In this document: piece by piece, positions 1 to 10,696 of the stretch | Layout: each line of letters begins with the position of its first letter | Position numbering within the stretch: position 1 is the first letter of the stretch | NCBI GenBank assembly: GCA_949289625.1 | Contig: CASEPH010000050.1 | Span: forward strand, 1 to 10,696 | Origin: an uncultured Clostridia bacterium | GTDB lineage: Bacteria > Bacillota_A > Clostridia > Oscillospirales > Oscillospiraceae | Length of the DNA stretch: 10,696 nt | Reading direction: 5' to 3' | The notes under the pieces: generated by a model | The model's input: the letters and a program-made list of their open reading frames with translations, nothing else | What the model was told of the DNA's origin: nothing | Database searches by the model: none | Made by a program: the position numbers and the translations under genes

Positions 1-920
1 TTGTGGGCGGTGTTCTTAAAGATGTCCAGGATGTTCTTGTCGTCGGCCCGCTCCGGCGTGGCCGTCAGGCCCAGGGTGAATTCCGGCGTAAAGTAGGACA
101 AAACCTTCTGGTATGTATCGGCAGAGGCGTGGTGCGCCTCATCCACAATGATATAGCCGAAGTCATCCGGCTTGAACCGTTCCAAGTTCAATGCCACGCT
201 CTGGATGCTGCCGCAGACCACGAAGGCGTTGCCCTGTTTCATGCTTTCTACATAGCGGCCGACTGTGGCCTTAGGCCACAATTCCCGGAAGGTCTTGGCG
301 GCCTGATCCACCAGTTCTACTGTGTGAGCCAGGAACAGCGTCCGCTTGCCGAATCGCTTGGCATCCATGACGGCGGTCACCGTCTTGCCGGTGCCGGTGG
401 CGTGGTAGAGCAGGGCGATGGTCTCAAAGTTGCAGCGCATCTCCTCCAGCGCCGCCAGAGCCTGTTTCTGATGTTCCTTCAGTTCCAGTTTGGAACCGTC
501 CAGGGACTTGCCCCGTTGGGTAGGGAGGTAGTCCTCGATCTCCTTGAAATTGGGGTGCTGGCCCAGGAATACTCGCAGTTCGTCCTTTACAGTCTCCGGC
601 TGCTGCTGCATCTGCCGCACTGCCCAGCGATACACATCCCAGCCCAGGTAAATCATGCTGTTCTGCTTGAGCAGGTCATCGTAAAACTTGTTTTGGGAGA
701 CCAGCTTGGGATTGTGAGAGGCCTCGTCGTCGATCTCGATGGCCACCTTCCGCCCGCCATTTTCCAGCAGGAAGTCGGCGAACCGGCTGTTCTGATAGAT
801 GTCGGAGAAGGGGTACTGGGAGTAAAGATAGCCGGCTTTCTCGGCACCGAAGGTATCGGAGAACAGTTCGATGAATAGATCTTCCGCACTGCTGCCGGAG
901 ACGGAGCGGTAGGTTGGCAT
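1..920 (-). CDS. SF2 DEAD/DEAH-box helicase with N-terminal PD-(D/E)XK-like nuclease domain (3' end outside window)
   Basis: Seen: an open frame from ATG at 920 to the window edge gives 306 residues. Residues about 10-100 resemble DUF559/Vsr-like endonuclease folds, with RFADF (D49) followed by VAIEID (E62, D64) and H69, which fits a PD-(D/E)XK metal site. A helicase core follows: Walker A ATGTGKT (174-180), motif II DEAH (260-263) and motif III GLTATPER (284-291). The C-terminal RecA lobe lies beyond the window. Known: nuclease-SF2 fusions of this kind translocate on or remodel DNA and are common in restriction and other defence loci. The start is supported by GAGGTG 8 nt upstream and lies 12 bp after the stop of the preceding pyrophosphatase gene, so the two are probably co-transcribed. 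No methyltransferase is visible, so classical restriction-modification is not established. Motif III and its flanks resemble the helicase at the other end of the window, suggesting a distant paralogue. Helicase call firm; nuclease call moderate; target unknown. Confidence 0.9.
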   Translation of the reverse strand, partial: MPTYRSVSGSSAEDLFIELFSDTFGAEKAGYLYSQYPFSDIYQNSRFADFLLENGGRKVAIEIDDEASHNPKLVSQNKFYDDLLKQNSMIYLGWDVYRWAVRQMQQQPETVKDELRVFLGQHPNFKEIEDYLPTQRGKSLDGSKLELKEHQKQALAALEEMRCNFETIALLYHATGTGKTVTAVMDAKRFGKRTLFLAHTVELVDQAAKTFRELWPKATVGRYVESMKQGNAFVVCGSIQSVALNLERFKPDDFGYIIVDEAHHASADTYQKVLSYFTPEFTLGLTATPERADDKNILDIFKNTAH

Positions 921-921
921 G

Positions 922-934
922 GAGGTGTCACCTC
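922..934 (-). promoter_or_regulatory. Palindromic ribosome binding site of the nuclease-helicase gene
   Basis: GAGGTG and CACCTC form a perfect 6-bp inverted repeat with one base between them. On the minus strand the first arm is the Shine-Dalgarno sequence, 8 nt before the ATG at 920, and it overlaps the TGA stop (933-935) of the upstream pyrophosphatase gene. As RNA, a 5-bp stem with a 3-nt loop could hide the binding site until a ribosome finishing the upstream gene melts it. The repeat is seen; translational coupling is inferred. Confidence 0.4.
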
Positions 935-1253
935 AATTCTCAACAACTTGTTTCAGCAGAAGTTTCTTCTCAAAGCCACCCCGTTTGGCGGCCTTGTCCG
1001 CCCGCACCTGCTCCAGTTCTTCCACTGTCCAACCCCGGGCTTTCACGACAGCCTGCATGACCTCCAGAAGGTCGGCCAGTTCCTCCAGGGATTTGCTCTC
1101 CTGATACTCTGCCAGCTCTTCGTTCAGCTTTTCGTCCAGAAGGCGCAGATACTCCTCGTGGGAGAGCGTTTCGCAGATGCAGGTTTTCCCATCTGCCTCA
1201 ACGATTTCGGGGATGCGGTCGCGGACCAGTTTGTGATACAGTTTAGCGGACAT
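933..1253 (-). CDS. MazG-like / phosphoribosyl-ATP-pyrophosphohydrolase-like NTP pyrophosphatase
   Basis: This 106-residue protein has the all-alpha NTP pyrophosphatase pattern: EExxE (E45, E46, E49) followed by ExxD (E58, D61), the acidic residues that bind Mg in MazG/HisE-type enzymes. It starts with KLVRDRIPEI (8-17) and ends with an RGGF motif (91-94), the hallmark of the small proteins often named 'phosphoribosyl-ATP pyrophosphohydrolase' outside his operons. Such enzymes convert an NTP or dNTP to the monophosphate plus PPi, usually as cytosolic house-cleaning. There is no histidine gene nearby, so a HisE role is unlikely and the substrate is unknown. GGAGG lies 7 nt before the ATG at 1253. 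The first 11 bp overlap the end of the NUDIX gene, so the two are translationally coupled. Pairing with a NUDIX enzyme suggests a shared role in nucleotide sanitation or in removing a nucleotide product during defence; this is inference. Confidence 0.87.
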   Translation of the reverse strand: MSAKLYHKLVRDRIPEIVEADGKTCICETLSHEEYLRLLDEKLNEELAEYQESKSLEELADLLEVMQAVVKARGWTVEELEQVRADKAAKRGGFEKKLLLKQVVEN

Positions 1254-1626
1254 TTTTCAGCCTCCTCAATATCACCTCGTCCGCCGGGCAGAATTCATAT
1301 TGGTCAATCTCGCCTGCGGTGATCCAGCGGATGTCGTTGTGCTCCAGCTTCTGGGGTGTGCCCTCCCGAATGGAGGCGTTGAGCAGCGTCAGGTGAACCG
1401 TCAGATCGGGGTATTCATGGACCACATCCATAAATGCTTCCCCCACATCCAGTGTAACGGCCAGCTCCTCCCGACACTCCCGGATCAGCGCTTGTTCCCT
1501 GGTTTCTCCGGGTTCCACCTTGCCGCCCACGAACTCCCAGAGTAGGCCGCGGGCCTTGTGTGCCGGGCGCTGGCAGATCATGAATTTGCCCTGATTCCAG
1601 ATTAGGGCCGCGACTACTTCCGTCAT
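1243..1626 (-). CDS. NUDIX hydrolase, MutT / 8-oxo-dGTP diphosphatase-like
   Basis: The 127-residue length is typical of single-domain MutT proteins. The Nudix box spans residues 35-57: G35, five residues, E41, seven residues, then R49-E50-C-R-E53-E54. The box ends in LAV, with Ala where the consensus has Gly. The approach to the box reads WEFVGGK, where MutT proteins usually have WEFPGGK. The C-terminal part, with IRWITAGEI and a PAD motif (114-116), matches the MutT/8-oxo-dGTP group. Known: these enzymes hydrolyse oxidised or non-canonical (d)NTPs to the monophosphate and PPi in the cytosol. The catalytic glutamates (E50, E53, E54) are present, so it should be active. GGAGA lies 10 nt before the ATG at 1626. 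The gene begins 39 bp after the jetD stop with no terminator between, and overlaps the next gene by 11 bp. It may therefore be transcribed with the jet operon. The exact substrate cannot be read from sequence. Confidence 0.92.
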   Translation of the reverse strand: MTEVVAALIWNQGKFMICQRPAHKARGLLWEFVGGKVEPGETREQALIRECREELAVTLDVGEAFMDVVHEYPDLTVHLTLLNASIREGTPQKLEHNDIRWITAGEIDQYEFCPADEVILRRLKNVR

Positions 1627-1665: not shown

Positions 1666-2907
1666 TCACTTCGTCAAAAAAACTTCCTGCTCAATTGTGA
1701 CGCCATATTCCAGAATCTTCTCCATAGCAGACCGGAAGCGTGGGTATTTCCCGCAGTCCGTTGCGGCTCGGACTTGTTCCAGATAGGCCGCTGGGCGCTT
1801 CAGTCCGCTGCAATGATAAGCCACCACATCGTCCCCAGACATGCGCATGGGCGTCAGATGGGGGAAAATCATCTGCAGGCGCTCAAACATCTGGAAACCA
1901 CCAAGATCAATATCTGCCCAAAAAGCAACCAGAGCCTTTTCTGGAGCGAATGCTGCGATTTTTTCAAAAAACTTGCGCTTTTGTGGACTCAGGAAGCCTC
2001 CGTGGTAAACAACGAGCTCATCAGAATGCAAGTCCGATAAGATAAATTCATCGTAGTTGGTCTTATTCTCGATAAAAACAATCTTTTGGATTTTGCTCAG
2101 ATCAAAAGAAGCAATGGAGTCCACGGCTGTGCTGGGCAGAGCAAGGCCATAGGGTGACATTGCGGCGATTTTGAGCTCACCAAGATTAGTTTTTATGGCA
2201 CAGTCCCCGGCGAGCTCATAAAACTCTGGACGGGCATAGACACCAAGATAGGCAAGTTTTTCCCGGTCGCCCATATTCCCTTGTTCACAGGCTTCTGCCA
2301 GATCTACAGAGTACTGCACCGCAATCCGAAGGAATAGATCCCGAACCTCCCGTTCAAAGGTTTTTGTGTCCTGGTAGCACCTGTTGCTGAAGGCGCGCAT
2401 GGTGATGGCTTCTCCATGGAGAGAATCATATGCCGCAAATGCAGTAAGGAGTTTGTCCAGGAGAGGCCTGTCCTTTTTGCACCAGCCGGGTACGCGGAAG
2501 GCCTCCCTCGCTTGGCTGCATACATCATCCCGCCATGCGGCGATCCAATCTGTCGTAACTTGAGAGAGCTGTGAGGCAACCAGAGTTGCAATAGACTGCA
2601 CAATCTCCTTGGGGTGTTTCCTGCCTGTAATTCGATAACACTCAGGAAGACGCTCCAAATTTAACACAATACAAGATAAGACAGGCCGCCCGCTGACCCA
2701 TTGAGTGGAAATCAGGTCCTGCGCCTCTAAAGTTTTGACCACATCGTTCCATGCGTCTCGGATCTGTGCGTCCTCATACTGATATTCCGGGAACTCGTTT
2801 TTTTCAATTCGCAGCATGACACGGCGCGAGGAAATCCCTGGCTGCATCAAGTGCTTGCTCTTTTCATATTTATCCAACAGGCGGGAGAGGAGGAGTTCCT
2901 GCTTCAT
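1666..2907 (-). CDS. jetD: Wadjet nuclease subunit JetD (Toprim / Topo VI A-like)
   Basis: JetD is the effector of Wadjet: a dimeric nuclease related to topoisomerase VI subunit A and Spo11 that cuts circular plasmid DNA trapped by the JetABC motor. The 413-residue protein has the expected two parts: an N-terminal DUF3322-like region (about 1-240) and a C-terminal DUF2220/JetD_C Toprim region. The predicted metal ligands are visible: a Glu in the strand FIENKTN (E280) and the DxD in FWADIDLGG (D332, D334). The C-terminus ends with the family-like TIEQEVF. I chose ATG at 2907, which forms an ATGA overlap with the jetC stop and has AAAGGAG 11 nt upstream. An in-frame ATG at 2931 would add eight residues but place that binding site inside the gene. 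The middle is clearly AT-richer than its neighbours (19 G+C in 60 bases at 2041-2100). Identity is firm from the motifs plus position in the operon. Confidence 0.93.
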   Translation of the reverse strand: MKQELLLSRLLDKYEKSKHLMQPGISSRRVMLRIEKNEFPEYQYEDAQIRDAWNDVVKTLEAQDLISTQWVSGRPVLSCIVLNLERLPECYRITGRKHPKEIVQSIATLVASQLSQVTTDWIAAWRDDVCSQAREAFRVPGWCKKDRPLLDKLLTAFAAYDSLHGEAITMRAFSNRCYQDTKTFEREVRDLFLRIAVQYSVDLAEACEQGNMGDREKLAYLGVYARPEFYELAGDCAIKTNLGELKIAAMSPYGLALPSTAVDSIASFDLSKIQKIVFIENKTNYDEFILSDLHSDELVVYHGGFLSPQKRKFFEKIAAFAPEKALVAFWADIDLGGFQMFERLQMIFPHLTPMRMSGDDVVAYHCSGLKRPAAYLEQVRAATDCGKYPRFRSAMEKILEYGVTIEQEVFLTK

Positions 2908-5900
2908 GCCGACAAGATCTCCTTTCCCCAAGCTCTGATGTGCATCCGATACTTCTCTTTGATGACCAAATGGGTTCGATCCGCCAGCGGCATAATGTCA
3001 GGCAGTTTGTCCGGCGGGGTGCAGATGATGGCCTGCAAGCCCATCTTTCGCAGCAGACGGACGCTTTCCACGATACGGTCGCTGTCCATTTTATTAAAGG
3101 CTTCGTCAAACACCACCAACCGGACGGTATTGCTGGCCAAATTGGACGGATTGTTCACCTGATATAGTTGCGCAAAGGAAGCCAGTACCGCAATATAGAA
3201 GGGAGTCTGGGTCTCGCCGCCGGATTTGGTGTTGAGGGTCTGAGAGAGCAACTGCCTGGAGCCATTCTGATCCGTGGTCTCCAGGTCAAATTTCAGGTAA
3301 GTCCTGAAATCCGTGAACCGCTCAATGTTTTGCTGGAGTTCGCTCTGTTTTCTGGCATTGAGCTGGGTGTCATCCGACATGGCGATTTGGTTGAATAGAG
3401 TCTCGATAAGCTTTCCATATTTCTGCTGAAACGGAACGGCAAACAGGCCGCCCTCCCCCTCCATCAGCTCCGGTGCCATGATCATGTCGTAATAGTCGGC
3501 GTAGTCCGGATTGCGCTCCACCCGGAACTGATATTGGTCCGTCCCGAATTTCGCCTGTTTCAGGGCCTTGTTCAGATTCCGGACCTGCTGCTGCACCTGG
3601 TCGATACTGGCTTTTAACTTGGAAAGAAAGTCGTTCTGGAATTGCTCCATGGCGCTCTCTCGGGCAGCTTTGATCTTTTCCCTAAATTTGGGCAGCTCGC
3701 TCTCCTCCAAGGTGCGCTGCTCCGATTCATACTCCTCATTGTCCGGCGCATCAACCCGGAAGGAACAAGGTTTGAATCGCTCGCCGTACTCCTGTCTGGC
3801 CTGAAAGAGGCTTCTCTCAGTCCGGTCCCGCTCATTTTTTGTGCGCTCCAACTGGTCGCTGAAGTTTTTGCGAACCACCGAGGGACGTTTCAGCCGCTCC
3901 AGCTCCTGTTGATACCGGGGCAGGCCTATCCGCTCCTGATAGTCCGGGGAGAAGCTCTCGCGGATGCTGTCCTCCAGCTGGGATAGCTTTTGATACTGTT
4001 CCGGCAGCCGCTCATATTCCAGATGGTGGAGTTGCTCCCGCAGCCTCCCAAGGGAGACCGACTTCTCGTCCTTCTTTCCGTTCAGCGACTTGATCTCCTG
4101 GTCCAGATGGGTGATAATTCTTCTCTGCTCATCCAGCCAAAGTAAGTCCAGCTGGGAGATCTGCTCTTCAATTTGCTTAATTTCTGTTTTGACCTCCAAC
4201 CAACGCAGATAGTCTCTCAGTTTTTCCTCCACGGTGTTCTGGACAAAAAACTGGTTGAACAGGGGGTCATCTCGCTGCTGCAGTACCAGAAGGATGGGTG
4301 ACCAGTGCTGCATATCCGACTTCAGCTGCTTTAGATCCTCCTCCAGATGCTGAATACGCAGTGCAACGGCCCGGCGGCCAATGAAGGCATCGTCCATCCA
4401 TGTCCGACGCAGTGGACGAGCCACATATCCCTGATACAGCATGCCCTCCACAGTGATCGCCGTCCTGTAAGTGCGAAGTTCCTCCACACGGTTGCAGCAC
4501 ACCACCCGGCCCAGCAGATAGTTGATGTAACTGCGGGCCAAATTGTTTTGCGTCTCTACTTTTTGTGCCAGACTGTTGGCGGCGGGCTCCGCACGGTGGT
4601 CTTCCCGCAGTTTGCCGATGTCCACAAGTCCAAAGGAGTTTTGGCCAAACTCCCGCTTAATCCGGTCATAAATTTTCAGCGCGGTTTGATAGTGGTCTGG
4701 CTCTACCAGCAGGTAGAACTTCTGTGCATTGAGGTAGCCCTCCACCGCGCCCCGCCAGGCCTCTTCTCTGATCTCCAGCACATCGGCGAGGATCGAGACC
4801 TCCACAGGGCGGCCAGCTCTCTGCTCCAGCTCCACCCGGAGGCGATCTCGCAACTGGATCAGCCCTCGCGGATAGTCCTTGACATTCTTGCGGAGATTGG
4901 CCAGGGTGGTCTCCTTCTGGTCCGCCTCTGCTCTATATTCCGCCAGCAGATCGTCCACCCTGTGAGCGGCACTTCTGAGCGTATTATAGAGATCTGTGAC
5001 CGCTCTCTGAGCCTGCTCAAAGAGGGAGAGCGGGTATGCAAAGATTTCCTGGTCAGCGTGCGCCAGCACTGCGTAGGCCTTCTGCGTAGCCTCCGCCGCC
5101 CGCCGCACCTGCACCAGTTCTTCTTCCTCCTCCCAGCCCCCGATGCTGTTACACAGACTGCTGAGCCGAACGGCCTCCCGTCTGATTTCCAATGCGAGGG
5201 ACTGAAGCCCCTTGCCCAGTCTGGCCTGTTCCTCTTGGCGCGACCGCTTTTCCTGCTGGAGCTTTTCCTCCTCCTGGAATACGCTGCTCTGGGCCACTGC
5301 CCGGTCCAGCTCGCGCCGGCGGGCCTCTTTTTGTTCGATCTCGGTCTCCAGGCTCGCAATGCGCCGTTCTGTCTCAGCCAGAGACGCCTCGCAGTCCCTT
5401 TTTCCCACCTCTGTGCGGTCGATCAGAGACTGCTGCTCCTCTTTTTCCGCCCACAGGGACAGGAAAGACTGCACCTGCCAGCGGTCGATGGACTGCTGCC
5501 AGTCCCGGTATATTCGGCCGATCTCCCGCAAGGCAGAGAGCTTCTCCTCTTGGCGCTGAGCCAGCTGCTCATGGCGCTTATAGTCCCGGATGTTCTGCTG
5601 CATGGCCTCAATGTCCGGTTTTTCCGGGATGTCGCAGATGTTCTCTGTAATAAACTTCTGGATGTCCACGATGGGTCGGAAGGAGACGGCCTTCTTCATC
5701 ATTCGCATGACCTGCTCATTATGGACATTCCACTTGGCCAGCAGATCGGCCTGGTACTCCTTGTGGGTGTCATACAGCTTTCCCCGCACCCCATAGGTTT
5801 TCAAAAATCCTCGCAGAGTCGGGATATCGATGGCCTCTCCCTGACGAATGAAGCAGTCCTCCGGAAGGGTACCGTCATAGAGGAAGAAACGGTCCTGGCG

Positions 5901-6257
5901 GCTGCCGTCGCTGCGGCAGTCGAACACGACGCCGCTGACAAACTGCTTCCCCTCCATATCGTCCAGAAACTCACAGGCGATGAAGGCGGAAAAGTCTTTT
6001 CCCCGCCGGGATCCAGGGTTGTTTTCATCCATGTCTGCCCGCAGATATCCGTCCAGAGTCCGCTGGGACTTCTCATTGGCCGCCTGATTGAAGTTGCGGG
6101 CATTGGTCTCACCCAAGAGCACGATCTGAAGAGCGTCGATCACAGTGGACTTCCCCGCTCCGTTCTTACCCGTCAGAAAATTGATGTCGTCCACTTCGAT
6201 CAGCTCTTTCGAGAAATACAGCCAGTTAATCAGCAGGATCTTCTTCAGCTTCTTCAC
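2904..6257 (-). CDS. jetC: Wadjet SMC/MukB-like ATPase JetC
   Basis: JetC is the motor of Wadjet. It dimerises, binds ATP between its heads and, with JetA and JetB, extrudes DNA loops until a small circle is fully reeled in. The 1117-residue protein shows the full SMC layout: N-terminal head with Walker A GKNGAGKST (30-38) and Q-loop Q44; coiled coil about 220-455; a globular hinge about 460-635; returning coil about 635-905; C-terminal head with signature motif SGGE (1012-1015) and Walker B VRLVVFDEA (1045-1053, D1051 and E1052 acidic pair) followed by a D-loop. This matches SbcC/MukB-type Walker B families. The start is a GTG at 6257, fixed by AAAGGAGG exactly 6 nt upstream; no nearer ATG has such a site. 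It overlaps jetB by 32 bp and jetD by 4 bp. No frameshift or missing ATPase residue is seen, so it should be active. Confidence 0.96.
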   Translation of the reverse strand: MKKLKKILLINWLYFSKELIEVDDINFLTGKNGAGKSTVIDALQIVLLGETNARNFNQAANEKSQRTLDGYLRADMDENNPGSRRGKDFSAFIACEFLDDMEGKQFVSGVVFDCRSDGSRQDRFFLYDGTLPEDCFIRQGEAIDIPTLRGFLKTYGVRGKLYDTHKEYQADLLAKWNVHNEQVMRMMKKAVSFRPIVDIQKFITENICDIPEKPDIEAMQQNIRDYKRHEQLAQRQEEKLSALREIGRIYRDWQQSIDRWQVQSFLSLWAEKEEQQSLIDRTEVGKRDCEASLAETERRIASLETEIEQKEARRRELDRAVAQSSVFQEEEKLQQEKRSRQEEQARLGKGLQSLALEIRREAVRLSSLCNSIGGWEEEEELVQVRRAAEATQKAYAVLAHADQEIFAYPLSLFEQAQRAVTDLYNTLRSAAHRVDDLLAEYRAEADQKETTLANLRKNVKDYPRGLIQLRDRLRVELEQRAGRPVEVSILADVLEIREEAWRGAVEGYLNAQKFYLLVEPDHYQTALKIYDRIKREFGQNSFGLVDIGKLREDHRAEPAANSLAQKVETQNNLARSYINYLLGRVVCCNRVEELRTYRTAITVEGMLYQGYVARPLRRTWMDDAFIGRRAVALRIQHLEEDLKQLKSDMQHWSPILLVLQQRDDPLFNQFFVQNTVEEKLRDYLRWLEVKTEIKQIEEQISQLDLLWLDEQRRIITHLDQEIKSLNGKKDEKSVSLGRLREQLHHLEYERLPEQYQKLSQLEDSIRESFSPDYQERIGLPRYQQELERLKRPSVVRKNFSDQLERTKNERDRTERSLFQARQEYGERFKPCSFRVDAPDNEEYESEQRTLEESELPKFREKIKAARESAMEQFQNDFLSKLKASIDQVQQQVRNLNKALKQAKFGTDQYQFRVERNPDYADYYDMIMAPELMEGEGGLFAVPFQQKYGKLIETLFNQIAMSDDTQLNARKQSELQQNIERFTDFRTYLKFDLETTDQNGSRQLLSQTLNTKSGGETQTPFYIAVLASFAQLYQVNNPSNLASNTVRLVVFDEAFNKMDSDRIVESVRLLRKMGLQAIICTPPDKLPDIMPLADRTHLVIKEKYRMHIRAWGKEILSA
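2919..2925 (-). promoter_or_regulatory. Ribosome binding site of jetD
   Basis: AAAGGAG on the minus strand lies 11 nt before the ATG at 2907, inside the end of jetC. The spacing is long, but the site is the only strong one nearby and, together with the ATGA stop/start overlap, decides the start against the upstream in-frame ATG at 2931. Confidence 0.6.
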
Positions 6258-6855
6258 CTTCGTCCTCCTTTCTTAGTATCGAAACGACGGCATTTAACTT
6301 TTCGCTGGAGACCACAGACAACACTGTCGGAAGGATAGCAAATTTACAACTGCCCTGATTGTACTTTCCCTCAATGCGCTGGATCACAGAGTGGTTATCC
6401 AACACTGTAAGCGCGCGCTTTACCTCGTCCATATTGGGCTTTGCAGGCAGGATGGCATAATCGGTCACCACTTTTTCCAGTAGGTCACGAACGGTACAAA
6501 TCGCATCCTGCTCCATGCCCAGGCGCTCCATGTTCTCCTCGTAAAGCATGCGGATCGCCAAGAGGATAGCGGTTTCTTTTTTGTTCAGGGCGTAGCGGTT
6601 CGCTTCATCTGTGTTCAAAACATAAAAAAACCCGTTCAGATCGTCCTTTCGCAAATCCCAGTCCAGAAAGGCCAGGTAATCCCGCACAACCTCAAAATGA
6701 GTGGAGAGGAATACATAGTCCGGGTTATTGACCCGCCCCTCCCCCGGGCGATATACCGTTCTCACCACATAGGTACGACTGAGCAGCTGATTGCAGATCG
6801 CCTTAAAACGGTCGAGTTCCTTTTGTGTCGCCGTACTGAACCAATCAAAGCTCAT
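6226..6855 (-). CDS. jetB: Wadjet KITE / MukE-like subunit JetB
   Basis: JetB is the KITE subunit that dimerises, binds the JetA kleisin and helps clamp DNA on the JetC heads. This 209-residue protein has the expected size for the DUF4194/DUF6063-like MukE group and is all-helical with winged-helix character. The stretch DYVFLSTHFEVVRDYLAFLDW (interrupted here as residues 46-66), NKKETAILLAIRMLYEE (91-107) and the C-terminal winged-helix segment VKRALTVLDNHSVIQR (145-160) support this. There is no catalytic motif, as expected. The last residues, 196-209, are very acidic, and their codons overlap the start of jetC by 32 bp in another frame. ATG at 6855 forms an ATGA overlap with the jetA stop and has AAGGAGG 7 nt upstream. 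Sequence alone identifies this subunit less strongly than JetC; its place between jetA and jetC carries much of the weight. Confidence 0.88.
   Translation of the reverse strand: MSFDWFSTATQKELDRFKAICNQLLSRTYVVRTVYRPGEGRVNNPDYVFLSTHFEVVRDYLAFLDWDLRKDDLNGFFYVLNTDEANRYALNKKETAILLAIRMLYEENMERLGMEQDAICTVRDLLEKVVTDYAILPAKPNMDEVKRALTVLDNHSVIQRIEGKYNQGSCKFAILPTVLSVVSSEKLNAVVSILRKEDEGEEAEEDPAD
6264..6271 (-). promoter_or_regulatory. Ribosome binding site of jetC (GTG start)
   Basis: AAAGGAGG lies 6 nt upstream of the GTG at 6257, inside the 3' end of jetB. It is the strongest site in the operon and fixes a non-ATG start that places the basic KKLKK N-terminus directly before the first beta strand of the ATPase head. 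Confidence 0.75.
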
Positions 6856-8252
6856 CGTTCCCCCTCCTTCCTGCGTGTGATCTGAAGCTGAGGAATTGTA
6901 TATTGCCCCTGTGTATAATTCCCCACCAGATCCCGGACCAGATAGCCCGCCTCCGGGTCCTGCCCTGTCAGTACGGCCAGCATACTCATGATGTAGGCCT
7001 TGTCATCGGACAGGACAAGGTCTTTCGAGTAGCAGATCCCACGCTCGCCCAGCCATTGCTCCACGTATCGTGAGACAGCGGAACGGCTATACTCTGTCCG
7101 GAGCAATTCCGCTGCCTGGGCCTCCACCCCCGCATCCAACTCTTGATCCTCGATCAGGACCGGCGTTGCTTTTGCCCGCTTCCCAGGCCGTTTCCGGTGC
7201 CACAGACTTTTTTCCGACAGAAATGACTGCTCATAGAACTGGAAGACCGGCTGGATATGTTCCACCAGTTCAGACGCGCGGTGATTTTTCCCCAGCGATG
7301 TCAGAAGGTAATTCAGATTCCCTCGGACATTGTGGTCCCGGTTGGTCAGGTTCTCCAACTTCTGCGTGGTCGCCCGGGTGTATCGGCGCACCTGCCGGTC
7401 GATCTCATCCAGATATTCGTGCTCTATGCTGTCATAGCGATCTTTCACCCAAAAGATTTTTTGCAGAAGATCCCGCCGGCACTCCTCCAGGGTGCCGCCT
7501 CGACGGTCTTGCAGCGCGGCGTTGGAGAGGGTCAGCAGAAGGGGCTCATCTTCCAGCCAACCGGTGAGAACGGCCTGTATGGGGACTCGGTACTTTGGTA
7601 CGGAGTCTTTGATCTTCAGCGGGCGAATATAGGCCTCCACTACTTTTTGCCCAAAATCGTCAAAGTGGGATGCCAGGACCTCATTGACCTCTTGCATTTT
7701 GACCTGTATTTGAAAGTAATGCTTCACATTGTGATAGACCATTTGCAGCAGGTCGATCAGCGACCGCGTATTGTCGTATGCACTGTAGATCGCAGCCATT
7801 TTGTCATAGATGTTTTCGCTGTCTGCCGCCACTTTCAGGGTAGAATAGGTGCCGAATACATAGGAATAGCCCCGAATCGGGCTGTCGTCGCGCAGTTGGT
7901 GAAAGACTTCCAGCAGACGGCTGCTATACCCTGGGACCGTAATATATTCCTCAAAATCCTCGCCGCGCTCTTTTTCGAACCAGCCCTTGCTGTATAATTT
8001 CCGAATCAGGAACCTGGCTCTACCCGAAATATCCCGCAGCTCTTCCTCATCAATGTCCTCGCCCTCAAAGGTGGCGTCTGCCAGCTGCTGCTCCAGTTTG
8101 CTCCGAAGCATCATGTAAAAATCCTGCTCCAGGATCTTCAGGTTCTCCCGGTATGCAGTATAAAGCACATCCAGGGCATTTGCATACAGTGTGCGGTTGG
8201 GCGACGCTAAAACAGAGAATAATTCGGTTGGAATACGATCAAACAGATTCAT
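6852..8252 (-). CDS. jetA: Wadjet kleisin / MukF-like subunit JetA (DUF5716-type)
   Basis: JetA is the kleisin that bridges the two JetC heads and carries JetB. The chosen ATG at 8252 gives 466 residues starting NLFDRIPTELFSVLASPN, the usual opening of the DUF5716-type JetA family (recalled, not searched). By analogy with MukF, residues 1-110 should form a winged helix, the helical middle (about 110-345) a dimerisation and linker region, and 380-460 a C-terminal winged helix that contacts a JetC head. A charged low-complexity linker (about 350-375, rich in K and R) fits a flexible kleisin segment. A longer frame opens at 8321, but its extra 23 residues have no family character and lie antisense to another gene. 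The ribosome binding site is weak (GGGGG, 7 nt). It is first in the operon and overlaps jetB by ATGA. DUF5716-type JetA probably marks a Wadjet subtype other than the best-studied type I (DUF3375). Confidence 0.88.
   Translation of the reverse strand: MNLFDRIPTELFSVLASPNRTLYANALDVLYTAYRENLKILEQDFYMMLRSKLEQQLADATFEGEDIDEEELRDISGRARFLIRKLYSKGWFEKERGEDFEEYITVPGYSSRLLEVFHQLRDDSPIRGYSYVFGTYSTLKVAADSENIYDKMAAIYSAYDNTRSLIDLLQMVYHNVKHYFQIQVKMQEVNEVLASHFDDFGQKVVEAYIRPLKIKDSVPKYRVPIQAVLTGWLEDEPLLLTLSNAALQDRRGGTLEECRRDLLQKIFWVKDRYDSIEHEYLDEIDRQVRRYTRATTQKLENLTNRDHNVRGNLNYLLTSLGKNHRASELVEHIQPVFQFYEQSFLSEKSLWHRKRPGKRAKATPVLIEDQELDAGVEAQAAELLRTEYSRSAVSRYVEQWLGERGICYSKDLVLSDDKAYIMSMLAVLTGQDPEAGYLVRDLVGNYTQGQYTIPQLQITRRKEGER
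6863..6869 (-). promoter_or_regulatory. Ribosome binding site of jetB
   Basis: AAGGAGG lies 7 nt before the ATG at 6855 and within the last codons of jetA. Its quality, compared with the weak site of jetA, suggests jetB may be translated at least as well as jetA. Confidence 0.65.
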
Positions 8253-8277: not shown

Positions 8278-8496
8278 ATGACTGGTATTTTGATCAAACT
8301 TGACGGAAGGCCTGATATCATATTTGAAAATGGAACGCTATATGGTGGCCTGCACTGTGGAGAGTGTTTTTCCGTGCTTGAGACCGATGCAGGTTGGGTC
8401 TCTGTACGGCTGGAATTGATCGATGACTGGGTGTTGGTAGACGGCGCCGGGGGAAAGAGGGCTCCTCTCCCCTACGGAAACCGGGTTCGCCTGTAA
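8278..8496 (+). CDS. Small DUF5348-like protein, divergent from the jet operon
   Basis: This 72-codon gene is the only plausible gene on the plus strand. It has a good ribosome binding site (AGGAG, 6 nt from ATG). The centre reads YGGLHCGECFSVL (residues 22-34), followed by a strand-rich segment with W40, RLEL and DDWVLVD (49-55) and a C-terminal NRVRL. This pattern resembles the DUF5348 family of small, probably beta-rich proteins common in Clostridia and their mobile elements; the match is from memory. No function is established for that family. There is no signal peptide, membrane segment or helix-turn-helix. The LHCGEC cysteines could bind a metal, but one pair is not enough to say so. 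Its stop lies 5 bp from the stop of the convergent helicase gene, with no terminator between. The whole gene is antisense to any leader of the jet operon, so its transcript could interfere with jetA expression. An alternative is that it is a passenger left by a mobile element. Confidence 0.72.
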   Translation: MTGILIKLDGRPDIIFENGTLYGGLHCGECFSVLETDAGWVSVRLELIDDWVLVDGAGGKRAPLPYGNRVRL

Positions 8497-8501
8497 ATCC
8501 G

Positions 8502-10696
8502 TTACCCCACCACCAATTTATTTGTCTTTTTCAAAAACTTCGCCGGAATGGGCCGGTCCAGCGCCCAGGTGATATTCATGGGCCGGCTGCCCTCGTGTTT
8601 CACATAGTTCGCCGTACCCAGGAAGGTATAAGCCTCGGCGCCTCCCGTAATCCGGTCCGCCTTGAACTCCCGGACAAACAGCAGCACTCTGCTCCCTCGC
8701 TCCCGATGGTGGATATACCGCTGGCCGGTGGGAGAGTCCGCCGCCGTGGTGCTCTGGCTCTGCCAGTGGAACAGGCTCTCGTTGATGGAATAGTCGTTGT
8801 ACATGGTGGTGGGCGAGTAGTCCTTGTCCGCCTTGTTCAACGTCACAAAGAACACATCCAGCTGCTTCTCCGGCAGCCATTTCACGCCCTCACGCACCGT
8901 TGCCGGCTTCAGGAAATCCAGCGCCACCAGCAGCTGATCCCGAGTGTAGGTGCAGTGGAGATCCAGCGGGCAGTCAAAGCTCAGATCCACCGGCTCGTCG
9001 ATGAAGTCAATCTGCTCATAGCGGTAGCGGAGCAGCTCCAGAAGCTCGCCCAGCAGCACCGGGCTGTCCGAGAGGGCATACAGGTTATCCAAAACCGCAT
9101 CAGATTTCCAATCCTCCGCTACCTTGCCCCAAACGGTCACATAAAACATCTGGAGCATCCGCTGTTCCACCGGAGAAAGGTTGGAAAAATCCACGTCGTC
9201 CAGCCGGGGCAACAGGTCCAGCAGGAAGGTGGTCCACCGGCGGGAGTCTACCACTGCCAGCTTGGAGAGGGCCTTGGTCAGCGTCTCCTCCAAGGGTTCC
9301 GCGAAGTCCTCCCGCACATCCGCCCGGGCGCACAGCCGGGAGAAGGAGGTAAACTTGTAAATTGTTCTGGGGTCCAGGTGGTAGTAATCCAGGAAGTTGG
9401 ACAGGGTGAGCTCCAATCCAGTATCCTCGGCAAAGCTGGCCACCCGAGATACCAGTCCGGCGGTGTTTCCATAGGAGGACCGGATGTTGTCCAGAATGTG
9501 CTTGGCCGCCTTTTTCTCCAACTGGATGTAGCAGCCTTTCGGGGCGGAGACAAACCCGTCCCTGATCTCCCGGGTCACGCTGCGGGTAGTGTTGGACAGC
9601 AGAGCGGCAAACTTGTCCTCGAAGTTGTACTTCTTGTTGGCCAGGCCGATGAAATCCAGCACTGTCAGGCATTCTTTGTCCTCCGCCAGCCGCAGGCCGC
9701 GGCCCAGCTGCTGGAGGAAGATAGTCAGGGACTCGGTGGGGCGCAGGAAGAGAACGGTATTTACCTCCGGGATGTCCACGCCCTCGTTGTAGATGTCCAC
9801 CACGAAAATGAAGCGGACCTCCCCGGCCACCAGGCGCTGTTTGGCGGCGCTGCGCTCCACATCCGGGGACTGCCCGGTGAGGTAGATGGAGGGGATGCCG
9901 TGCCCGTTGAAGTAGCGGCACATAAACTCCGCGTGTTCAATGGAGACGCAGAAGCCCAGACCCTTTACCTCGTCGATGTCGGTCACGTATTTCAGCAGGG
10001 CGCGCACCACCAGGTCGGCTCGACGGTCTGCAATCGCCCCGCTGAGGGTGTAAATCTTGGACAGATCCCCCTTGTCGTAGCCGCCCCGGCTCCAGCGCAG
10101 TTGGTCCAGGTCCACCGTGTCGGTGACGCCGAAATACTGGAAGGGGCACAGCAGTTTGCGGTCAATGGCCTCAGGGAGCCGGATTTCCGCGGCGATGCGG
10201 TTGTGGAAGTAGGGCAGCACGCTCTTGCCGTCCATACGCTCCGGGGTGGCTGTCAGGCCCAACAGGATTTGGGGCTGGTAGTAGGACAGCAACTTCTGAT
10301 AGGTGGGAGCCGCTGCGTGGTGAAACTCATCCACCACGATGTAGTCGTAAAAATCCGGGGCGGTTTTCGCGGTAAAATCCTGGCTGTTGAAGGTCTGGAT
10401 GGATAAAAACAGGTGGTCAATACCCTCTGTCCGGTAGCTGCCCACGAACAGCTCCCCGAAATTGGCGTCCTTCAGCACCGCCCGGAAGGTATAGAGGCTC
10501 TGCTTCAAAATCTCTTCCCGATGGGCTACAAAGAGCAATCGGCAGGGCTTTCCGGGATGCTGCCTCCGAAACCGCTTGTAATCCAGGGCGGAGATCACCG
10601 TCTTGCCGGTGCCGGTGGCGGCCACCACCAGGTTGCGGGTATAGCCCCGGACGGTGCGCTCCGCCTCCAGCTTATCCAGGATCTCCTGCTGGTAGG
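8502..10696 (-). CDS. SF2 DEAD/DEAH-box helicase with DUF3427-like C-terminal region (5' end outside window)
   Basis: The open frame runs from the window edge to a TAA at 8502, giving 730 residues; numbering here starts at the first complete codon. The helicase core is complete: Walker A ATGTGKT (26-32), motif II DEFHH (122-126, with Phe in place of the usual Ala), motif III GLTATPER (146-153), motif V NEGVDIPE (303-310) and motif VI QQLGRGLR (328-335). The second half is helical and ends with HWQSQS (643-648), a G-Q-R-Y segment and FLGTANYV, characteristic of DUF3427. Known family members often carry a phospholipase-D-like nuclease domain before the helicase, which would lie outside this window; that is inference. 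A GTG codon at 10628 sits just before Walker A and is not the true start, because the frame continues upstream with helicase-like sequence. Base composition is GC-rich (37 of 60 at 9181-9240). It lies upstream of jetA on the same strand, separated by 249 bp occupied by an antisense small gene. Likely role: DNA-processing defence or repair; target unknown. Confidence 0.92.
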   Translation of the reverse strand, partial: YQQEILDKLEAERTVRGYTRNLVVAATGTGKTVISALDYKRFRRQHPGKPCRLLFVAHREEILKQSLYTFRAVLKDANFGELFVGSYRTEGIDHLFLSIQTFNSQDFTAKTAPDFYDYIVVDEFHHAAAPTYQKLLSYYQPQILLGLTATPERMDGKSVLPYFHNRIAAEIRLPEAIDRKLLCPFQYFGVTDTVDLDQLRWSRGGYDKGDLSKIYTLSGAIADRRADLVVRALLKYVTDIDEVKGLGFCVSIEHAEFMCRYFNGHGIPSIYLTGQSPDVERSAAKQRLVAGEVRFIFVVDIYNEGVDIPEVNTVLFLRPTESLTIFLQQLGRGLRLAEDKECLTVLDFIGLANKKYNFEDKFAALLSNTTRSVTREIRDGFVSAPKGCYIQLEKKAAKHILDNIRSSYGNTAGLVSRVASFAEDTGLELTLSNFLDYYHLDPRTIYKFTSFSRLCARADVREDFAEPLEETLTKALSKLAVVDSRRWTTFLLDLLPRLDDVDFSNLSPVEQRMLQMFYVTVWGKVAEDWKSDAVLDNLYALSDSPVLLGELLELLRYRYEQIDFIDEPVDLSFDCPLDLHCTYTRDQLLVALDFLKPATVREGVKWLPEKQLDVFFVTLNKADKDYSPTTMYNDYSINESLFHWQSQSTTAADSPTGQRYIHHRERGSRVLLFVREFKADRITGGAEAYTFLGTANYVKHEGSRPMNITWALDRPIPAKFLKKTNKLVVG

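Follow-up and report, generated by a model that had tools for sequence, protein, structure and literature searches.

The closest described relatives of the locus treated here are Wadjet systems of type I. The locus is a four-gene jetABCD operon in a 10,696-nucleotide stretch of DNA from an uncultured Clostridia bacterium (contig CASEPH010000050.1), referred to as the window. The solved complexes 8as8 and 8q72, whose entry title reads E. coli Wadjet and which we take to be the Escherichia coli GF4-3 complex, share with it the jetABCD content, an SMC protein with Walker A, signature and Walker B motifs, a KITE subunit and a Toprim nuclease. They differ in sequence: similarity is low (no single-sequence match at E ≤ 1e-3), and the window belongs to a clostridial clade. 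Its JetB is also shorter, with 209 amino acids (aa) vs. 250 in the solved chain. According to the accessible text of PMC10586767, type I has been the subject of most Wadjet research so far, and 7til (Pseudomonas aeruginosa JetD) and 8b7f (Corynebacterium glutamicum MksG) are both termed type I JetD. As described in the accessible parts of that paper and of PMC12287153, circular DNA is extruded by JetABC until the motors meet, and JetD then makes its cut in the bent DNA; linear molecules and circles larger than roughly 50-100 kb are spared. In Clostridium cellulovorans, deletion of jetABCD raised conjugative plasmid uptake by about five orders of magnitude (PMC12287153, accessible part); this system, also a Bacillota Wadjet, is likened to that of the window by description. 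The closest named locus among the genome contigs searched is that of Faecalibacterium gallinarum JCM 17207 (L001), in which the gene order is the same, the jet proteins are 68-84% identical and the flanking helicases 87% and 93% identical.

The minus strand of the window, from 8252 to 1666, almost certainly holds a complete type I Wadjet operon, which by homology should function like published Wadjet-I. The operon is an ordinary, intact clostridial member of this known family. It starts with jetA (6852..8252, ATG, 466 aa), coding for the predicted kleisin subunit with DUF5716 (PF18982). It continues with jetB (6226..6855, ATG, 209 aa; KITE subunit, DUF4194), jetC (2904..6257, 1117 aa; SMC ATPase), which starts with a GTG behind AAAGGAGG, and jetD (1666..2907, ATG, 413 aa; CAP/winged-helix and Toprim nuclease). 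For jetD, an alternative TTG start at 2931 would give a protein of 421 aa. The genes overlap by 4, 32 and 4 bp, and none of the four open reading frames (ORFs) contains an internal stop. By eye, a Shine-Dalgarno-like purine-rich stretch precedes jetB, jetC and jetD, with a weaker one at jetA. The original prediction, made from the DNA alone, had described the operon as a complete and seemingly undamaged Wadjet with a JetA of the DUF5716 type; the ORF coordinates confirm its gene order and overlaps, and the ORFs, the Pfam and PADLOC matches and the motifs all agree with that description.

The best PADLOC models of all four proteins are of type I: JetA1 (PDLC00449, 6e-166, 551 bits), JetB1 (2.4e-52), JetC1 (E-value 0, 1205 bits) and JetD1 (1e-185, 615 bits). 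Moreover, every PADLOC match at E ≤ 1e-3 of JetA (10/10), JetB (14/14) and JetD (10/10) is of type I, as are the top 15 among the best 25 of 49 JetC matches. JetC is an SMC ATPase by Pfam (SbcC_Walker_B 4.1e-25, AAA_29 3.3e-17), by structure profile and by motif check. All three ATPase motifs are intact, as had been predicted: Walker A GKNGAGKS at residue 30, signature KSGGE at 1011 and Walker B LVVFDEA at 1047. Profiles built from the JetC and JetB families match the solved proteins of E. coli and P. aeruginosa, that of JetC nearly end to end, covering positions 3-1108 of 1112 in 8as8 (9.4e-43). For JetB, the profile matches 8as8 and 9qxt at about 1e-4 and 8dk1 at 1.7e-3; together with the Pfam matches to DUF4194 (1.3e-22) and MksE (1.3e-7), this bears out its assignment as a KITE-type subunit. 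JetA matches the Pfam family JetA (PF18982) at 7.2e-109, spanning profile positions 2-434 of 434.

The fourth protein, JetD, matches JetD_C (1.7e-16). Its acidic residues, E280 (IENK), D332 and D334 (DIDLG) and E406 (EQE), are invariant in an alignment (A4) of 15 sequences, consisting of the window and 14 relatives with identities down to 21%; loci without a JetD match were excluded from it. The Toprim-like glutamate and DxD motif named in the original prediction are thus located and conserved. The predicted structure (predicted local distance difference test, pLDDT, 92.5) contains a Toprim fold, resembling in a structure search Topo VI-A, Spo11 and the solved JetD/MksG; the Toprim fold anticipated for JetD is hence present, as a prediction. 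The JetC alignment (A3) has 19 rows; L029, in which JetC is divided over two ORFs, and L033, which has no more than a fragment, are not among them. Alignments A1 and A2 contain, besides the window, 38 and 29 of the 120 listed homologues, picked for spread; in A1, the window JetD lacks its first methionine, and the model numbering is consequently one below the residue numbers used here for E280 and the others.

Several observations weigh against this reading. Searched singly with phmmer, none of the four jet proteins matches a solved structure at E ≤ 1e-3, which places the clade of the window far from the characterized complexes. The solved JetD proteins are matched only weakly by the JetD profile (8b7f 0.0024, 8q72 0.4, 7til 0.68), and a narrower profile puts 8b7f (0.064) below an unrelated chain. 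Identity to 7til and 8b7f is 13-16% over the aligned part, and the whole-chain superposition of the JetD model on them is loose (template modelling score 0.26-0.43, root-mean-square deviation 10-13). A search with the JetA profile, built from 30 close sequences, leaves all solved chains unmatched, even with the threshold relaxed to E ≤ 10. JetA, expected to be a kleisin, matches the Wadjet JetA model, but its kleisin fold is putative: the predicted structure is poor (pLDDT 64.3, predicted template modelling score 0.33) and was therefore kept out of the fold search. Furthermore, a scan for sigma-70-type promoters upstream of jetA found no site.

For the operon, the analysis shows which genes it has and in what order, that their motifs are intact, to which families they belong, how JetD is predicted to fold and that the operon is conserved in related genomes; loop extrusion, size sensing, cutting and a single transcript would be expected from the literature. 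In such a scheme, JetC as the SMC motor, JetA as the kleisin and JetB as the KITE subunit would form a dimer of motor units loading on DNA and extruding a loop, driven by ATP. On a small circle, the two motors would exhaust the DNA, stall and hand over the bent DNA for cleavage by the Toprim domain of JetD; linear or very large DNA would be spared.

Head to head with jetA, a DUF5348 gene (8278..8496, plus strand; PF17295, 1e-13) lies outside the Wadjet core. It is separated from jetA by 25 bp, so any jetA promoter overlaps the DUF5348 gene or sits further upstream. No terminator was found in a scan around jetA; one promoter-like site follows jetD (9/12 matches; shuffles gave a mean of 0.3). 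Transcription of jetA might start from helB, the helicase gene beyond the DUF5348 gene, or from a type of promoter outside the model of the scan. A related gene faces jetA in the same way in L002, at a distance of about 28 bp by match ends, and in L026, at about 26 bp; none was found beside jetA in L001, L003, L025 and L027. The family was considered as a constant Wadjet part and rejected: it occurs in five of the 23 genomes searched and adjoins jetA in one of them (G245), and otherwise in the window and in L002, a short contig. DUF5348 was not found mentioned in the PMC literature, whose coverage leaves out subscription papers.

Among 7996 candidates scored, 977 JetA homologues were above threshold; the 120 listed include 52 full-length proteins with 97-99% identity. 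Of 396 sampled genomes from the F. gallinarum family, 19 have JetA matches, at 20 places, two of which are fragments of ~140-150 residues. Distant matches (24-25% identical) occur in two of 72,556 plasmid records, and a single scan of viral contigs, in which 15 stretches fitted a pattern, confirmed no JetA.

The operon lies among other genes for DNA defence and nucleotide cleaning; apart from the DUF5348 gene, those on both sides of it are also on the minus strand. Upstream, helB (8502..10694), its start cut by the window end, codes for a superfamily 2 helicase with DUF3427 (ResIII 1.6e-34, DUF3427 1.9e-23; PADLOC mREase_IV, 577 bits); the full-length copy in L001 also bears a PLD domain. Downstream of jetD lie a MutT-like NUDIX hydrolase gene (1243..1626; NUDIX_4 1.5e-23, PADLOC candidate PDC-S07 146 bits) and a gene for a small protein of 106 aa (933..1253), conserved beside NUDIX and helA. 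By eye, this protein resembles MazG/phosphoribosyl-ATP-pyrophosphatase, and no Pfam, PADLOC or NCBIfam model matches it at E ≤ 1e-3. The last gene is helA (3..920), its end cut by the window edge, for a helicase with a nuclease-like N-terminus (ResIII 6.2e-35); it matches the nuclease MTES_1575 weakly, under the cut-off of that model, and is 93% identical to the L001 copy. No Rfam family reaches its gathering threshold in the window, and no tRNA was found there. The GC content at third codon positions is 0.55-0.72 in the jet genes of the window, compared with 0.81 in helB, 0.78 in helA, 0.73 in the NUDIX gene and 0.66 in the MazG-like gene; as the jet values reach 0.72, jetC overlaps the range of the flanking genes. 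In L001, the values are 0.41-0.53 for the jet genes and 0.59-0.71 for all flanking genes. This locus differs from the window by having no DUF5348 match and an additional DUF6998 gene (17297-17761), which separates the MazG-like gene from helA. The DUF6998 gene, with matches in L044, L045 and L047, shows weak similarity to the model of a methyl-directed restriction enzyme.

Most probably, the operon is a movable cargo carried by a defence island. Wadjet fills the gap between helB and NUDIX/MazG in the window, in L001 and in L026; in the last, NUDIX is not matched and the MazG-like gene follows jetD. The F. gallinarum genome has the locus a second time, at L045, where the gap holds genes for an N6/N4 methylase and a HerA-type ATPase as well as for a third protein, which has no match. 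At L047, the gap is occupied by a gene with DUF7662 and by one for a 665 aa protein bearing a PLD domain of the NgoFVII type; NUDIX is reduced here to a scrap of 24 residues and helB lacks its middle. The gaps of L050 and L051 span about 300 and 220 bases, each with one short ORF by eye, and helB of L051 is matched in two frames. In L044, helB is a scrap of 59 residues and a 186 aa gene without match adjoins NUDIX. Beyond this scrap lies a Tmn/YobI-type NTPase (7537-11178), as if replacing most of helB. Two more distant Wadjets, in L031 and L037 (JetA 34% and 22% identical to that of the window; split across two ORFs in L037), adjoin helA/MazG on another side. Both are of type I by PADLOC, and the JetC proteins of these two and of the window are 25-34% identical to one another, so the three Wadjets represent separate clades.

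That Wadjet and its neighbours (DUF3427 helicase, NUDIX, MazG-like protein and helicase-nuclease) form one larger system is improbable. The window and L001 share the order helB-jetABCD-NUDIX-MazG-helA, and L026 has helB-jetABCD-MazG-helA, as such a system would have it. However, L003, L025 and L027, of the same Wadjet clade as the window (69-81% JetA identity), have no match to these neighbours in the examined flanks (the contig of L002 is too short to judge), and helB-NUDIX-MazG-helA is present in L050 and L051, where Wadjet is absent, and in L045 and L047, where the cargo is a different one. Flanks were examined for 19 of the 20 JetA places (without G353), some shortened by contig ends; an ortholog of helA lies on the examined flank in four of them (genomes G001, G245, G239 and G159). 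A plain search for helA gave matches at E ≤ 1e-3 in 354 of the 396 genomes, because helicases are common. Orthologs were therefore counted at ≥46% identity over about ≥290 residues, with two candidates scored per genome, split pieces counted once per genome and shorter high-identity scraps (such as in G072, G200 and G204) excluded, which gave at least 17. JetA and a helA ortholog are both present in six genomes (19 and 17 of 396; 0.82 expected); the hypergeometric value of 4.7e-5 is not a clean probability, as the genomes are related. More than 2 Mb separates the two genes in G330; those of G255 are on separate contigs.

We interpret the gap between helB and NUDIX-MazG-helA with moderate confidence, the loci being few, as an exchangeable defence slot, comparable to the core defence hotspots of P. 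aeruginosa as described in the accessible part of PMC10250203. The two have in common constant flanking genes and varying defence cargo of lower GC; they differ in that the flanks of the window are themselves defence-like and in the far smaller number of loci here. The fuller picture has about even chances: a fixed slot at which Faecalibacterium-like Clostridia exchange defence systems, in or beside which three type I Wadjet clades have settled, with the divergent DUF5348 gene, 25-28 bp from jetA, travelling with some members of the clade of the window, perhaps as a regulator. No published account of the helB/NUDIX-MazG-helA slot was found in the PMC literature, within the same coverage.

A Wadjet subtype that has received less study (II or III), with a size cut-off and a cutting pattern of its own, is very hard to reconcile with the subtype models. 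The original prediction had taken the DUF5716-type JetA as a sign of a subtype less studied than type I. This is contradicted: PADLOC describes its JetA1 models, which are of type I, as the DUF5716 domain, so the argument runs backwards. The proteins are indeed far in sequence from the solved type I proteins. Nevertheless, no type II or III model of JetA, JetB or JetD is matched at E ≤ 1e-3, and the sole type II or III entries among the best 25 of the 49 JetC matches are JetC2 (type II), at 36 and 34 bits vs. 1205 bits for JetC1. The JetC profile likewise favours the 1096-1119 aa JetC of 8as8 and 8dk2 (9e-43 and 1.5e-39) over the 1371 aa JetC of 9qe0 (1e-14). A type II/III assignment was rejected on the PADLOC subtype models, and with DUF5716 marking type I, the proposed deviation in plasmid-size cut-off or cleavage pattern has no basis here: nothing seen in the sequence points to one. 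Literature pairing Wadjet with DUF5716 was not found among PMC papers, subject to the same coverage. Least credible of all is an MksBEF/MukBEF-like condensin organizing the chromosome rather than defending it: JetB also matches MksE, JetC weakly matches the MukB N-terminal model and MukB chains are among the JetC profile matches, but the Wadjet models score far higher, jetD brings the operon to four genes and encodes an intact Toprim nuclease, whereas MksBEF/MukBEF consist of three genes without nuclease, and the JetA of the operon occurs in a minority of genomes (19/396), in a defence-gene neighbourhood.

The operon of the window thus adds to the known type I Wadjets a gut-clostridial one whose sequence is distant from those of the solved complexes of E. 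coli and Pseudomonas. Type I Wadjets of this sort may partly explain the resistance of some Clostridia to small plasmids in the laboratory (compare the accessible part of PMC12287153). The genomic context is the more useful part of the finding than the Wadjet itself: the neighbourhood is interesting, if thinly sampled. If the slot is true, scanning helB/NUDIX-MazG-helA would be a cheap route to new defence genes in relatives of Faecalibacterium.
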